Below, piece after piece: positions 1 to 62,238 of a stretch of 64,000 nt of DNA. Numbering within the stretch: the stretch's first letter is position 1; each line of letters starts with the position of its first letter. The notes under the pieces are model-generated. The model saw only the letters and a program-made list of their open reading frames with translations, ran no database searches and had not been told where the DNA came from. This DNA comes from Halococcus hamelinensis 100A6 (lineage in GTDB: Archaea > Halobacteriota > Halobacteria > Halobacteriales > Halococcaceae), in NCBI RefSeq assembly GCF_000336675.1, contig NZ_AOMB01000042.1, positions 1 to 64,000 on the forward strand, given 5' to 3'. Position numbers and translations under genes: made by a program.

Positions 1-141
1 GGAGCGAGCGGGGTGACGCAGGCTTTTGATCCACATTTTGCCAGGGAGCGAACGAAGTCGTTCGAAAGACGCGAAGCGTCTTTCGTGATGACGAGACGGC
101 GAAGCCGTCTCGAACCATGAGCGACCGCAGCAAAAGGTGGT
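1..141 (-). repeat. Modular hairpin element, copy A (cut by window edge)
   Basis: This spacer directly follows the stop codon of the first trkH when read on the minus strand. Its conserved ends are CCACATTTTGC at 31-41 and GCAAAAGGTGG at 130-140. They pair with one internal mismatch and enclose three hairpins: 49-64 (7-bp stem), 63-85 (10-bp stem, GAA loop) and 92-112 (9-bp stem, GAA loop). The stem starts 1 nt after the trkH stop. Copies B, C and D share the same ends. The part to the left is outside the window. A structured RNA 3' end is inferred, not shown. Confidence 0.75.
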
Positions 142-5249: not shown

Positions 5250-5514
5250 ACTCCGAGATACGCTCTCCGGATACTTGAGCCTGTGTCTCGGAACGACGGC
5301 AGCGTACGACGGTTCCGGCAGTCGTAGCGGGAAAGGTCGGCGGGCGAGCGCCGAAGGCGCGAGCCGAGGCTCGGGAGAGCGGTGCGGGCCTGGTGGATGA
5401 AGGGCGACGGCGCGAGCGAAGCGAGCGCCGGAGGGCTTCGGCGGCGCGGCTGCGGTGCGGAGGCGGAGCGGGTGCGGTGGGCGGTGTGGAAGCGGTCGGC
5501 GGATGCGGGAGGGG
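5250..5514. other. GC-rich spacer with repeat modules
   Basis: There is no gene here. The stretch nearest the VOC gene should hold its promoter. From about 5338 it becomes repetitive: a GAA-loop hairpin at 5348-5360, then the module CCTGGTGGATGAAGGGCGA at 5389-5407, which recurs at 50108 and, inverted, near 61326. It continues with GAGGGCTTCGGCGG and a GCGGT-rich tract. Module order matches the spacers at 14 kb and 61 kb and leads directly into element copy B. Confidence 0.6.
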
Positions 5515-5659
5515 AGTGGTTGTACCGCGAGTGAGCCGAAGGCGAACGAGCGGGCCGAGGAGCCCCTGAGCGACTGAAAGGAGCGAGGGGGTGACGACGG
5601 CTTTTGATCCACATTTTGCCAGGGAGGCCGCTTCGCGGCCGACCGCAGCAAAAGGTGGG
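5515..5659 (-). repeat. Modular hairpin element, copy B
   Basis: Read on the minus strand, this follows the rnhA stop codon by 3 nt. The closing stem is formed by 5609-5619 (CCACATTTTGC) and 5648-5658 (GCAAAAGGTGG), with one mismatch. The interior is a single 6-bp hairpin with a TTC loop at 5626-5640. The outer conserved modules GTTGTACCGCGAG (from about 5519) and GAGGGGGTGACG precede CTTTTGATCC at 5601-5610. This is the most compact copy and defines the minimal element. Confidence 0.75.
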
Positions 5660-5661
5660 TG

Positions 5662-6282
5662 TTAGTCACTCGCGGGCCGGTCGGCGCGCGAGGGTGGCGG
5701 GATCTCGTCGCGACCGGCGGGGGTGGGCAGCACGCACCGGGGCGGCTCCTCGTTGACGTGGTGGTACTGGGTCGGGGTGTTGGCGAGCGGGTGGGCGGGG
5801 TTCTCGGCGCTCCGGATGCGGGCGACGCGACACTCGCCGAAGCCTCGGAGGCGTGCGCGGATGCCCCGCCAGTGGTGGCGCGAGCGCTCGGGTATCGAGA
5901 GCGAGCGGGTCGAGTGACAGCCGCCGCGGGTCGCGAGCAGCGCCCGGTTGGCGTTCGCCGCGAGGTCGTCGTGGTCGACGAGCACCCCGACCCGGGCGTC
6001 GGCGGGGGCTCTGGCGGCGAGGACGTCGAGCCCGAGGTGGAGCGCGCGGTACTCGGCGACGTTGTTGTCGGGCGCGGTGTCGGGCACCGCGAGGCGGGCG
6101 ACGCGGTCGCCGCCGCGGGTCTCGATCACCACGCCGAGCCCGCCGGCCCCGTCCGAGAGGCGATAGGAGCCGTCGGTGGCGACGTAGAACTCCCGGCGGT
6201 GCGTCCGCGGCGGGTGGGCGATGTGCGGGGTGGGCGAGTCATCGAAGAGGTCCCGAAGCGCCGGCCGGCCGTATGCGGCCAT
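5662..6282 (-). CDS. rnhA: Ribonuclease HI, haloarchaeal type
   Basis: This 206-aa protein has an RNase H fold that would cleave RNA in RNA-DNA hybrids. It shows the motifs ATDGSY (first Asp), NNVAEYRA (Glu) and VGVLVDHDD (second Asp). At the fourth position, where type 1 enzymes usually have NxxADxLA, the sequence reads NPAHPLA, with His in place of Asp. An N-terminal extension of about 30 residues precedes the core. It could still be active with three acids, but it may instead be a diverged RNase H-like protein. It ends at element copy B. Confidence 0.75.
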   Translation of the reverse strand: MAAYGRPALRDLFDDSPTPHIAHPPRTHRREFYVATDGSYRLSDGAGGLGVVIETRGGDRVARLAVPDTAPDNNVAEYRALHLGLDVLAARAPADARVGVLVDHDDLAANANRALLATRGGCHSTRSLSIPERSRHHWRGIRARLRGFGECRVARIRSAENPAHPLANTPTQYHHVNEEPPRCVLPTPAGRDEIPPPSRADRPASD

Positions 6283-14089: not shown

Positions 14090-14282
14090 CCGTGGTCGGG
14101 GGCTTCGGCGGTGCTGTGCGGTGGCGGTTAGTGGTTGCGGGGGCGGTTAGTGGTTGTACCGCGAGCGAACGGAGTGAGCGAGCGGGCCAAGAAACCCCCG
14201 AGCGGAGCGAGGGGGTGACGCAGGCTTTTGATCCACATTTTGCCAGCGAAGGAGCGAAGCGACTGAGCGCAGCAAAAGGTGG
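14090..14282 (-). repeat. Modular hairpin element, copy C, beside tRNA-Pro
   Basis: This copy starts 8 nt beyond the 3' end of tRNA-Pro when read on the minus strand. The closing stem is 14233-14243 (CCACATTTTGC) with 14272-14282 (GCAAAAGGTGG). The interior is short and only weakly hairpinned. Outer modules are GTTGTACCGCGAG (from about 14153), GAGCGAGGGGGTGACGCAGG, and further out GGGGGCTTCGGCGG near 14097. It shows the element also follows an RNA gene, not only coding sequences. Confidence 0.7.
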
Positions 14283-49871: not shown

Positions 49872-50254
49872 ATAGCTCTTACTCTACTCGAACCGGGCGC
49901 GGGCACGAGTGGCAGCAGCCGCGCCGTGGCGGGCGCGGTGCGGTCGGCCGTGCTGCGGTGCGGTCGCGGCAGCGGTGGGTGCGGTGCTGCGGTGGGTGCG
50001 TCCTGGCGTCTCGGCGAGCGGGAGCGAGGTGCTCGTACCTCGATGCGAACGGTGAACGGAGTGAACCGTGAGCGACAGCGAGCCGGGGCGGCGATTGCGG
50101 GGCGGTTCCTGGTGGATGAAGGGCGAGGGCCGAACCCCGGAACACGCTTCGCTCCTTCCGAGCTGCTCGAAAACGCGAAGCGGTTTCGGCATCGCGAAAC
50201 GCCCTCCACGTTTCGAACGGCTTCGTTCGCCCTCCGCGGTCACGAAGACAGGTT
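49872..50254. repeat. GC-rich spacer with hairpin-rich element variant
   Basis: These 383 nt have no supported gene. From the left there is a GCGGTG-rich tract, then ACGGT...ACCGT arms near 50047-50067, then CCTGGTGGATGAAGGGCGA at 50108-50126, shared with the 5.4 kb and (inverted) 61.3 kb spacers. Next come several hairpins with GAA-type loops, including CGAACG-GCTT-CGTTCG near 50215-50230. It continues into the 3' end of the HAD gene. Confidence 0.55.
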
Positions 50255-58826: not shown

Positions 58827-58891
58827 CCATTCGGCGTGGTTGGCGGCAGAACTGGTATCGTTCCGCGAGCGAGCCAACGGCGAGCGAGCGG

Positions 58892-58898
58892 TTTTTTT
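58892..58898 (+). terminator. T-run after ahbAB
   Basis: A run of seven T, 66 nt after the ahbAB stop, followed by another run of six T at 58907-58912. U-rich runs act as archaeal terminators. The second run is also part of the hairpin element variant next to it. Confidence 0.4.
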
Positions 58899-58957
58899 GG
58901 CCCAGATTTTTTGCACGAGGGGTGCGCGTCAGCGCACCCGAGTGGAAAAAAGGTGGG
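58899..58957 (-). repeat. Hairpin element variant E, before sirC
   Basis: The ends CCCAGATTTTTT (58901-58912) and AAAAAAGGTGGG (58946-58957) can pair, except for two internal mismatches, and enclose an 8-bp hairpin GGGTGCGC-GTCA-GCGCACCC at 58920-58939. The layout copies elements A-D with different bases. Unlike those, it abuts a gene start: sirC begins 5 nt beyond. Confidence 0.6.
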
Positions 58958-58962
58958 TGTGG

Positions 58963-59646
58963 ATGATACCGCTGCTCCACGACTTCACCGATTCGACGGT
59001 CCTCGTCTTCGGTGGTGGAACGGTGGGTGCGCGAAAGGCGCGCCGGTTCGCGCGCGAAGCGCGAGTCGTGGTCGTGAGCCCGACGTTCACGGACGCGGAA
59101 TTCGGCGACGTGGAGCGGGTTCGGGTCGCGCCGACCCCCGACAAGGTCCCCGAGTGGTTCGACCGAACGCGTCCGGCGCTCGCCGTCGCGGCGACGGACG
59201 ACGAGGACCTCAACGACGCCATCGCGCGGGCGGCGCGCGAGCGCGGTTCGTTGCTGAATCGGGCCGACCGAAGTCGGAGGGGAAACGAGTCGGTCGATGG
59301 AGCCACCGGGGGTGAACGAAGCCGCGAGGTAGTCGTGCCCGCGACCGTTCGCGACGACCCGGTCGTGATGGCGGTCGCCACGGGTGGGCGGAGCCCCGCA
59401 CTGAGCCGGTACCTCCGCGAGCGCTTCGAGACGGAGTTCGCCGGCGCGGGTGCGATGGCCGACCTCACGGCCGATATCCGGGCGGAGCTCCGCGACCGGC
59501 TCCCGCCGGAAAAACGGCGGGCGGCGGTCCGGGCGGTGGTCCGCGCCGATCGGGTTTGGAAGGCTTTAGGTAACTCAAGGACCAACGCGAGACAAGAGGC
59601 GAACTCAGTGATCTGCGATATGCTCTCGGGAGGTGACGGTCGATGA
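58963..59646 (+). CDS. Precorrin-2 dehydrogenase / siroheme ferrochelatase family
   Basis: This 227-aa NAD-dependent enzyme oxidises precorrin-2 to sirohydrochlorin. The NAD loop is VFGGGTVGARKARRFA. Family segments include AVAATDDEDLNDAIARAA and VVMAVATGGRSPALSRYLRE. It lacks a C-terminal methyltransferase, so it is the SirC/Met8-type protein. Its TGA overlaps the hemA ATG. A short hairpin with a GAA loop (59051-59063) lies within the gene. Confidence 0.9.
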   Translation: MIPLLHDFTDSTVLVFGGGTVGARKARRFAREARVVVVSPTFTDAEFGDVERVRVAPTPDKVPEWFDRTRPALAVAATDDEDLNDAIARAARERGSLLNRADRSRRGNESVDGATGGERSREVVVPATVRDDPVVMAVATGGRSPALSRYLRERFETEFAGAGAMADLTADIRAELRDRLPPEKRRAAVRAVVRADRVWKALGNSRTNARQEANSVICDMLSGGDGR

Positions 59647-60974
59647 CGGTGGCTACCGGCGTGATCTCGGGCGTGAGTCTCGCCCACGGCACCGCGAGCG
59701 TCGAGCAGATCGAGGCGGCGTGCGTGGAGGACGACCACGCCGCCGTCGAGGCGCTGCTGGCGCACGACGGAGTCCGGGAGGCCGTCTGTCTCCAGACCTG
59801 CAACCGGTTCGAGGTCTACGTCGTCTCCGACGACCCCGAGCGGGGTCGCGACGTCGTCACCTCGGTGGTCGAGGAGTTCCCCGACGAGGCGGTCGTCGAA
59901 CTCAGCCACGAGGAGAGCCTGCGCCACCTCATGCGAGTCGCGTGCGGGCTCGAATCGCTCGTGCTCGGCGAGGACCAGATCCTCGGCCAGGTCCGGAACG
60001 CCTCCACGGCCGCCCGGTCGATCGGCGGCATCGGGCCGGTCCTCGAAGAGGCGATCGAGAAGGCGATCCACGTCGGCGAGCGCGCCCGCACCGAGACGGA
60101 GATCGGCGAGGGCGTGGTCTCGCTCGGCAGCGCCGCCGTGGCGCTCGCGGCCGACGAGCGCTCGCTGGCCGAGGCCACCGGGCTGGTGATCGGCGCGGGC
60201 GAGATGGGAACCATCGCCGCCCAGTCGCTCGCTCGGTCGCTCGACCGGCTGCTCGTCGCGAACCGCACCGAGGCGAACGCGGCCCACGTCGCCGACCAGG
60301 TCGAGACCGACGCCGCGGCGGTCGCGCTCGACGACCTCCCCGACGCGCTCGCCGTGGCCGACGTGGTGGTTTCGGCGACCGGCAGCCCGAACCTCGTCGT
60401 CGATGCGGACGACCTCGACGCCGCGGGTGAGACGCTCTTCATCGACATCGCCCGGCCCCGGGACGCGCCGGCCGCCGCCGCCGACCTCGACAACGTCGAC
60501 CTCCGCGACCTCGACGCGCTCGAATCCGTGACGAACGAGACCCGCGAGCGCCGTCGCGAGGCCGCCGCCCGAGTAGAGGCCATGATCGACCGGGAGTTCG
60601 ACCACCTGCTCGCCCACTACAAGCGCGCCCGCGCCGACGAGGTCATCGCGTCGATGTACGAGAACGCCGAGCGGATGAAACACCGTGAGCTCTCGCGCGC
60701 GGTCTCGAAGCTCGAAACCGACGGCCTGACCGACGACCAGCGCGCGGTGGTCGAATCGCTCGCCGACACACTGGTGAGTCAGCTCCTCGCCGCCCCGACC
60801 AAGAGCCTCCGGGACGCCGCCGAGGCCGACGACTGGACCACGATCAACTCCGCGCTCCGGCTGTTCGACCCCTCCTTCGACGGAGCGAGCATCCCCGAGC
60901 CCGACACCACCGAGGTCTCCGCCGAGACCCGCCACGCGCTCGCCACCGCGGTTCGCGAGCACCTCGACGACTAA
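59643..60974 (+). CDS. hemA: Glutamyl-tRNA reductase
   Basis: This 443-aa first enzyme of C5 tetrapyrrole synthesis reduces Glu-tRNA to glutamate-1-semialdehyde. The catalytic cysteine is in CLQTCNRFEVY near residue 53. GEDQILGQVR and the NADPH loop VIGAGEMGTIAAQSL follow. The C-terminal dimerisation helix is present. It overlaps sirC (ATGA). Element copy D starts 3 nt after its stop. Confidence 0.95.
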   Translation: MTVATGVISGVSLAHGTASVEQIEAACVEDDHAAVEALLAHDGVREAVCLQTCNRFEVYVVSDDPERGRDVVTSVVEEFPDEAVVELSHEESLRHLMRVACGLESLVLGEDQILGQVRNASTAARSIGGIGPVLEEAIEKAIHVGERARTETEIGEGVVSLGSAAVALAADERSLAEATGLVIGAGEMGTIAAQSLARSLDRLLVANRTEANAAHVADQVETDAAAVALDDLPDALAVADVVVSATGSPNLVVDADDLDAAGETLFIDIARPRDAPAAAADLDNVDLRDLDALESVTNETRERRREAAARVEAMIDREFDHLLAHYKRARADEVIASMYENAERMKHRELSRAVSKLETDGLTDDQRAVVESLADTLVSQLLAAPTKSLRDAAEADDWTTINSALRLFDPSFDGASIPEPDTTEVSAETRHALATAVREHLDD

Positions 60975-60976
60975 CA

Positions 60977-61345
60977 CCCACCTTTTGCTGCGCTCGTTCG
61001 GCGCTTCGCGCCTCACTCGTCCCAAAATCGCTCCGCGATTTTGTGTGCCAATCAGAACTGCGAAGCAGTTCTGATGACGCTGGCAAAATGTGGATCAAAA
61101 GCCTCCTCCTTCCCACCGGAAGAGCTTCGCTCTTCCGTGCCCTCGCTCGCCTCCGGCTCGCGAGAACGATAGTCAGTCGTCGGCCCGCTCACTCGGCTTC
61201 GCCTCGCTCGCGGTACAATAACATCCCCATCCACAGACCGCACCGCCGACCGCCTCCGTACTGCCTACCGCAACCGCACAGCACCGCCTCCGCCGAAGCC
61301 CTCGACCGCTCGCTCCGCTCGCGGTCTCGCCCTTCATCCGCCAGG
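60977..61345 (+). repeat. Modular hairpin element, copy D (largest)
   Basis: This element follows hemA. The closing stem is CCACCTTTTGC (60978-60988) with GCAAAATGTGG (61083-61093). Between are hairpins at 61000-61012 (5 bp, TTC loop), 61023-61043 (9 bp, TCC loop) and 61051-61075 (11 bp, GAA loop). Beyond it comes ATCAAAAGCC, a 9-bp TTC-loop hairpin at 61117-61137, then CTCGCGGTACAAT (61208 on), a CCGC-rich tract, and the inverted CTCGCCCTTCATCCGCCAGG (61326-61345). Module order matches copies B and C. Confidence 0.75.
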
Positions 61346-61461
61346 ACCGCGTCCGCTTCGCACCGCCACCGCCCGGCGACCGCGCCGCACCGCGGCCGCC
61401 GCCACCGCACCGCGACCGCCGTGCCGCAACGCTTTCGCCGAACCGGAGGCGAGGGATCCGC
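61346..61461. other. CCGC-rich spacer before the propeller gene
   Basis: These 116 nt continue the repetitive CACCGC-rich sequence, with no gene seen. The last 30 nt should hold the promoter of the propeller gene, but no clear TATA box is visible. Confidence 0.45.
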
Positions 61462-62238
61462 ATGAGCACCATCGACGAGAAGCGCGTCCACGCCGCGAAC
61501 ACGGACCCGGTGGCGCTGTTCGTCGCCACCGACGTTGGCCTCGTGCGCGTCTCCGTCGCGGGCGAACGCGTCGGCGAGATCGGACTCCTCGACCGCCGAT
61601 CCGCCCGTGACGTAGCGACGACCGGCGAAACCATCGCCGTGGCGACCGACGAGGACGTCCTGGTCGGCGAGGACCTCGACGAGACCGGCTTCGGACCCGC
61701 GACGGCGGTCGGCTTTTCGGACGACCTCTTCGCGGCCGCTCCCGACGGCACCGTCGCACGCCGAACCGACGACGAGTGGCTCGACTGCGGCCAACTCGAA
61801 GGGATTCGAGCCATCGACGACGACCTGATCGCCGCCGAAGACGGAGTGTATCGCCTCGCCGACGACGAACTCTCCTACTCGGGGCTCGACGACGTTCACG
61901 ACGTCACGGGGGGGACACCGCGTGCCGCAACCGCCAGTGGACTGTACCGCCTCGGAAACGGCTGGGTCAACGAACTCGACGGCGGCTTCGAGATGGTCGC
62001 CGGGGGACCGTCCGGGGTCGCACACGCGGTCACCGAGACGGCGTTCTACGCCTTCGACGGCGAGTGGACCCGGGTCGACGGAGTGGGGAGACGGGTCGTC
62101 GACGTCGCCCGCGGGGTCTATGCGGTCTCCGCCGACGGAACCCTCCTGACCGCCACCGACGACGGCTGGCGCGAGCACCCGCTCGGCACGCCCGGCGCGC
62201 ACGCGGTGGTCGCGCGCCCGGACCGAAAACCCGTTTAG
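61462..62238 (+). CDS. HVO_0234-type beta-propeller protein
   Basis: This 258-aa soluble protein contains repeated short beta blades, for example VALFVATDVGLVRVSV, DLIAAEDGVYRLADDE and TPRAATASGLYRLGNGW. Lengths and spacing fit a propeller of the type known in haloarchaea as the HVO_0234 family. It has no signal peptide. It is 21 nt upstream of prs and probably co-transcribed. Function is unknown. Confidence 0.85.
   Translation: MSTIDEKRVHAANTDPVALFVATDVGLVRVSVAGERVGEIGLLDRRSARDVATTGETIAVATDEDVLVGEDLDETGFGPATAVGFSDDLFAAAPDGTVARRTDDEWLDCGQLEGIRAIDDDLIAAEDGVYRLADDELSYSGLDDVHDVTGGTPRAATASGLYRLGNGWVNELDGGFEMVAGGPSGVAHAVTETAFYAFDGEWTRVDGVGRRVVDVARGVYAVSADGTLLTATDDGWREHPLGTPGAHAVVARPDRKPV

Follow-up and report, generated by a model that had tools for sequence, protein, structure and literature searches.

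A modular element at gene edges in Halococcus and other haloarchaea, a candidate two-way transcription boundary

In the window, that is, the whole 64-kb stretch of Halococcus DNA that we analysed, the hemA gene (59643-60974, plus strand, with GlutR domains) ends with a TAA stop codon at 60972..60974. It is followed at 60977-61345 by domains 1-3 of a structured element, then by a C-rich tail of the CCGCACCGC type (61346..61461, plus strand), and the next gene begins at 61462. On the plus strand, the element opens with the 5' arm CCACCTTTTGC of a closing stem, P1 (60978..60988), which holds the sense-strand U-tract (60983-60986). The 3' arm of P1, GCAAAATGTGG, lies at 61083..61093, and on the minus strand it reads as U-tract 2 (61085-61088). 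Between the arms, a variable interior (61000..61075, plus strand) comprises hairpins at 61000-61012, 61023-61043, and 61051-61075. On the minus strand, U-tract 1 of a predicted inward-facing terminator (61097..61100) stands 8 nt from U-tract 2, and domain 2 (61101..61218) contributes hairpins that end on U-tract 1, with CTCGCGGTACAA at 61207-61218. Domain 3 (61293..61345, plus strand) consists of CCGAAGCCCTC, a hairpin, and CGCCCTTCATCCGCCAGG. The interior hairpins, here and in other copies, bear GAA or TTC loops, both on one strand, and thus some palindromes seem inverted. We rejected a coding reading, as the ORFs over the element look spurious, their frame being broken by hairpins of varying length.

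The first-pass annotation had reported four copies, placed after trkH, a second gene, hemA, and a tRNA-Pro gene, and all of them were found where it had put them. The gaps it gave between gene and element were correct (1, 3, 3, and 8 nt, respectively), and both the 11-bp closing stem with one C-U mismatch and the shared order of modules, A5-A3-D2-D3, proved real. The hemA copy lies on the plus strand and the other three on the minus strand. The trkH copy (1..140; 5' arm 130-140, core 21-41 including the 3' arm at 31-41) is cut by the start of the contig. The second copy (5389..5658; 5' arm 5648-5658, core 5599-5619, domain 3 end 5389-5406) follows an ORF at 5662-6282, and the tRNA-Pro copy extends over 14097..14282 (5' arm 14272-14282, core 14223-14243). 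Among the proposed gene names, Pfam upheld TrkH and HemA, but not rnhA for the second gene, an ORF without Pfam match at 1e-5. The core GCAAAATGTGGATCAAAAGCC matched exactly four times in the window, as compared with 0 expected from 100 shuffles. The minus strand also carries a fifth copy, of subtype B (AAAAACCTGGACTAAAAA type) with domain 2, at 58858..58911, and a domain 3 end without recognised domain 1 at 50107..50125.

We then evaluated how widely the element occurs. In this genome (G000, 3.42 Mb), the core gave 51 matches at up to 3 mismatches and the reversed-pattern control gave none. A few of the 51 are copies doubled across a single N, as at L001, L010, L016, and L027, apparently assembly joins inside the repeat that inflate the count, and the genome thus has about 47-51 copies. 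On contig C15 (L039), downstream of the element, CTGTCTCTTATACACATCT beside an N looks like leftover sequencing adapter. Subtype A (GCAAAATGTGGATCAAAAGC) reaches ~50 copies in G000 and in the sister species G006, as against 1-9 in other Halococcus. Subtype B has 8-34 copies in each Halococcus genome searched, and across the order 37 genomes out of 195 have it; domain 3 (CGCCCTTCATCCRCCAGG) is found 34-71 times per Halococcus genome. A more general signature, AAAAANNTNNNNNAAAAA, is present in 179 of these 195 genomes and in 63 of 66 genera, with 2038 matches across the order versus 223 for the reversed pattern, and 1587 versus 214 outside the genus Halococcus. Lone matches per genome can be chance, and 110 genomes had at least 5 matches and more than three times their own control. 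An Rfam search of the window gave no family match above the gathering score, and the parts of the literature on haloarchaeal repeats and terminators that we consulted contained no description of the element.

Covariation in the closing stem, on which the earlier reading had been made to depend, is strong. In a 29-sequence alignment, P1 is 98.3% paired, and its covariation score exceeds those of all 500 shuffles and lies far above those of slid versions. In 137 copies, which are related to one another so that the counts are not independent, the second pair is C-G in 118, G-C in 17, and A-T in 2, and is broken in none, and the C-T mismatch is kept in 132. Subtype B follows the same pairing rule with other letters, mostly CCTGC with GCAC and also CCTCG with CGAC, with one exception (L218) and one doubtful case (L221). 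At gyrB and EF-2 ends of other families, we found the arm pairs CGAAATTTTGC/GCAAAATTTCG, GGAGATTTTT/AAAAATCTCC, and GTACCTTTTT/AAAAAGCTAC. Several arm sequences coexist within one genome, yet they match inside each copy. The arms are 33 to 218 nt apart, and P1 folds on either strand. Most apparent lone 5' arms were the other arm on the reverse strand.

Next, we examined where the copies sit; outside named genes, gene calls came from a simple codon-usage script. Of the 137 subtype A copies, related ones included, 101 begin after a same-strand stop codon, most of them within 20 nt and with a median distance of about 5 nt, 11 follow tRNA genes, and 13 abut a divergent gene at its start. That leaves 12 copies, of which four border the SRP RNA gene, on either side of it in G000 and in G006, and another three lie near a tRNA match in Rfam. 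Around the SRP RNA gene (L030:1607-1920 and L084:2280-2593), the element on each side turns its gene face toward that gene. Beyond the gene-end copies, the next gene is tandem in 48 cases and convergent in 43. Given that copies are found at stop codons, behind tRNA genes, where divergent genes begin, and on either flank of the SRP RNA gene, the constant feature is that one face touches a gene edge: orientation is set by the gene's edge and not by the gene's strand. The earlier view of an orientation-fixed element at gene ends was thus supported as to orientation, but "gene ends" was too narrow, as about one copy in ten lies at a divergent start and the SRP RNA gene is flanked on both sides. 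Only about a tenth of the gene ends with room carry the element, and it was rejected as a 3'-end signal of all genes, CCACCTTT following only 11 of 171 gene ends sampled. In G000 (L001-L050), the stop codon before the element was TAA or TAG in 36 of 38 cases, as compared with 43% of all genes (p = 2e-10), TGA being used by 57% of all genes. We considered this bias as a target-site signal and set it aside; it is strong, but it may reflect housekeeping genes.

Folding distinguished the two strands. For domain 2 and for the longer stretch, the strand opposite to the gene gave the better fold in 118-120 of 121 copies, and over all stretches, under RNA or DNA rules, it did so in 100-120 of 121, a bias that cannot separate RNA from DNA since folding of single-stranded DNA would give the same result. 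The earlier annotation had therefore folded the less likely strand. The opposite strand has one or two GC-rich hairpins, which in Halococcus consist of 2-bp helices with tandem G-A pairs between them and loops of the GNA type, whereas at the same hairpins the gene strand has T-C in place of G-A. As a matter of fact, a strict GA-ladder motif was found within elements 38 times on the opposite strand versus 2 on the gene strand, with 4 occurrences in a shuffled 458-kb sample. A hairpin ended at most 2 nt from a U-tract in 111 of 127 cases on the opposite strand versus 23 of 127 on the gene strand, and the tract reached in this way on the opposite strand is one of U4-U5. On the opposite strand the gap from one U-tract to the other (U4-7 N8 U4-7) was exactly 8 nt in 51 of 55 cases, in loci that had been fetched without that pattern, and the 8-nt spacer itself takes at least seven different sequences. 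The gene strand has a single U4-U7 tract, typically ~10 nt past the stop codon. In G085, from another family, a strong hairpin stood 0-4 nt before the U-tract at 20 of 20 sites, with a pairing arm at 16 of 20. After most elements, an ACCGC-type C-rich, G-poor tail runs on the gene strand up to the next gene, with 42% C and 25.5% G versus 31% and 31% elsewhere.

The reading that we favour, by a modest degree of confidence, is that of a modular two-way transcription boundary set against the gene and strongest versus inward transcription. Judging from the sequence, RNA polymerase is probably halted by the element whichever way it runs, and above all when it enters the gene from outside. Polymerase arriving from outside, by antisense, convergent, or readthrough transcription, would be stopped by the hairpin and double U-tract, and polymerase leaving the gene would be stopped at the single U-tract of the gene strand. 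Subtypes may spread by overwriting the 5' domain at existing sites, perhaps via ectopic recombination. Against the boundary reading, the tracts of subtype A have only four U, a hairpin is not strictly needed for archaeal termination, and most gene ends with room lack the element. The archaeal termination factor aCPSF1 is encoded in this genome (TIGR03675, 970 bits, G000:C14), and the double U-tract would fit its two-U4 binding site. In Methanococcus, two U4-tracts are the minimal efficient aCPSF1 binding site, and two-tract terminators stop transcription best (PMC8716108). In Haloferax, termination reached 95% of transcripts at a T5C sequence and 59% at a hairpin (PMC7237163). In Halobacterium, antisense RNAs are over-represented at the 3' ends of mRNAs (PMC6523106), which makes them a plausible source of inward transcription. 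Termination accounts for neither P1, domain 3, nor the C-rich tail.

Several known systems resemble the element in part. Bacterial intrinsic terminators share the stable hairpin directly before a U-tract, which we found on the opposite strand at 0-4 nt; in contrast to them, the element would act on an archaeal polymerase, has a second U-tract, is built in Halococcus of 2-bp helices with tandem G-A pairs, and faces into the gene. The REP/BIME and BOX repeats of bacteria likewise lie outside genes and close to their ends, as palindromic modules that vary in their interior and number in the tens. Unlike these, the element has sites conserved between species and families at which subtypes turn over, and no partner transposase was found. 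The archaeal U-tract terminators of aCPSF1/FttA also have U4+ tracts at gene ends, with two close U4-tracts as the best-binding arrangement (PMC8716108), and both U4+ tracts downstream of genes and the two-tract arrangement are present here. The element differs in that its two tracts keep a fixed distance of 8 nt, come after hairpins (GA-ladders in Halococcus), lie on the strand that runs into the gene, and are coupled through base pairing to the U-tract of the other strand. The dyad terminators of Haemophilus uptake sequences are similarly inverted pairs of a short word at gene ends (PMC5217627), but the arms of the element are not one fixed word and covary within each copy. We discarded an integron attC site on inspection, the stem ends bearing no GTT/AAC core boxes and the arms being CCACCTTTTGC/GCAAAATGTGG.

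A first alternative is that the element belongs to the sense transcript, the gene's own mRNA reading into it so that P1 and the hairpins set the end, processing, or stability of the RNA. The position of copies a few nucleotides past stop codons and tRNA ends, the covariation of a P1 able to fold on either strand, and the preference for the strong stop codons TAA/TAG agree with it. Yet on the gene strand the U-tract lies ahead of the hairpins, which would be missing from an mRNA that ended on it; this strand folds less well, with T-C for G-A, and copies occur at divergent promoters without an upstream sense gene. We consider this alternative unlikely. Of the 3'-end RNA proposed in the first-pass annotation, what stands is a structured gene-end element plausibly tied to termination; the sense strand as the folded molecule does not.

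We also compared the sites of the element between species. Most of the G000 copies compared are matched by one at the same position in G006. Sites in G006 without subtype A often carry subtype B (L005, L009, and L040) or a further subtype (L020 and L032), and at the replaced sites domain 3 and the tail are partly kept. One subtype B copy is missing in G006, but the flanking DNA there differs. In other Halococcus species, the hemA and trkH ends carry subtype B, another module, or nothing. Collectively, the same sites with differing subtypes point to sites that persist while the 5' domain is exchanged. Across the order, an element was present at 12 of the 47 gyrB/EF-2 ends that have room for it versus 1 of 50 other ends at the same loci, under a strict arm rule that misses diverged forms and with some matches that may be chance palindromes. 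This enrichment and the persistent sites argue for a function at given genes and not for a recently moving repeat. Another module, AAAGCCCTCG - hairpin - CTCGCCCTTTNCATGTCC, takes this position at trkH ends (L154-L156 and L159) and gyrB ends (L237, L242, and L259), directly behind a TGA stop or overlapping it.

The selfish alternative, in which a transposase moves folded single-stranded DNA of the REP/MITE type that tolerates or targets gene edges, seems quite unlikely to us, and more so than the sense-transcript one. It would account for the uneven number of subtype A, abundant in two sister species and scarce in other Halococcus, for a modular build with swapped parts, and for one strand folding better, as in attC or REP elements. 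It would also account for partial 5' motifs (CCCACCTTT plus a few nucleotides) stacked before elements at L005, L014, L032, and L037, which look as if left by earlier replacements. However, the sister species matches most G000 copies at the same place, another subtype usually stands where A is missing, and diverged versions exist at gyrB and EF-2 ends of other families. Moreover, G000 and G006 have one Y1_Tnp each, but the search gave none in Halococcus G001, G004, and G008, all of which carry the element, and this ruled out a RAYT/Y1 transposase link. The mobile element targeting gene ends that had been suggested is thus weakened, as G006 shares most sites and has other subtypes at several more, and as we found no partner transposase whose presence follows that of the element.

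A functional antisense or small RNA made from the opposite strand, whose folded body would be the product and not a terminator, would agree with the strong structure and covariation of that strand; but inspection showed a GC-rich tail on that side without a visible TATA box, and both the number of interior hairpins and their sequences change freely, so that we hold it very improbable. Least probable of all, and barely credible to us, is that the paired arms are a DNA signal, a cruciform or inverted binding sites, for the near-identical U-tract motifs on both strands and the Haemophilus precedent of repeated-word dyads acting as terminators (PMC5217627) are opposed by several arm sequences per genome, matched within each copy, and by the wide range of arm spacing.

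Returning to the two-way boundary, a broader proposal may be drawn from these sequences, which we put forward tentatively and with less than even confidence. Haloarchaea would guard single genes with inward-blocking boundaries, made of hairpins (tandem G-A ladders in Halococcus) that lead into two U-tracts at a fixed spacing, and held fast through base pairing with the terminator of the gene itself, with sites kept across families and sequences overwritten by cassette exchange. If this is true, housekeeping genes (EF-2, gyrB, SRP RNA, and tRNAs) would have at their edges a specific and widespread device that bars outside transcription, and archaeal termination would gain a hairpin-assisted, fixed-spacing form. 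One could then search for A5-N8-A5 together with a T-tract arm able to pair, and so map transcript boundaries in most haloarchaeal genomes, and the element would allow one to study, in a natural setting, how regulatory DNA holds its place while its sequence is swapped.
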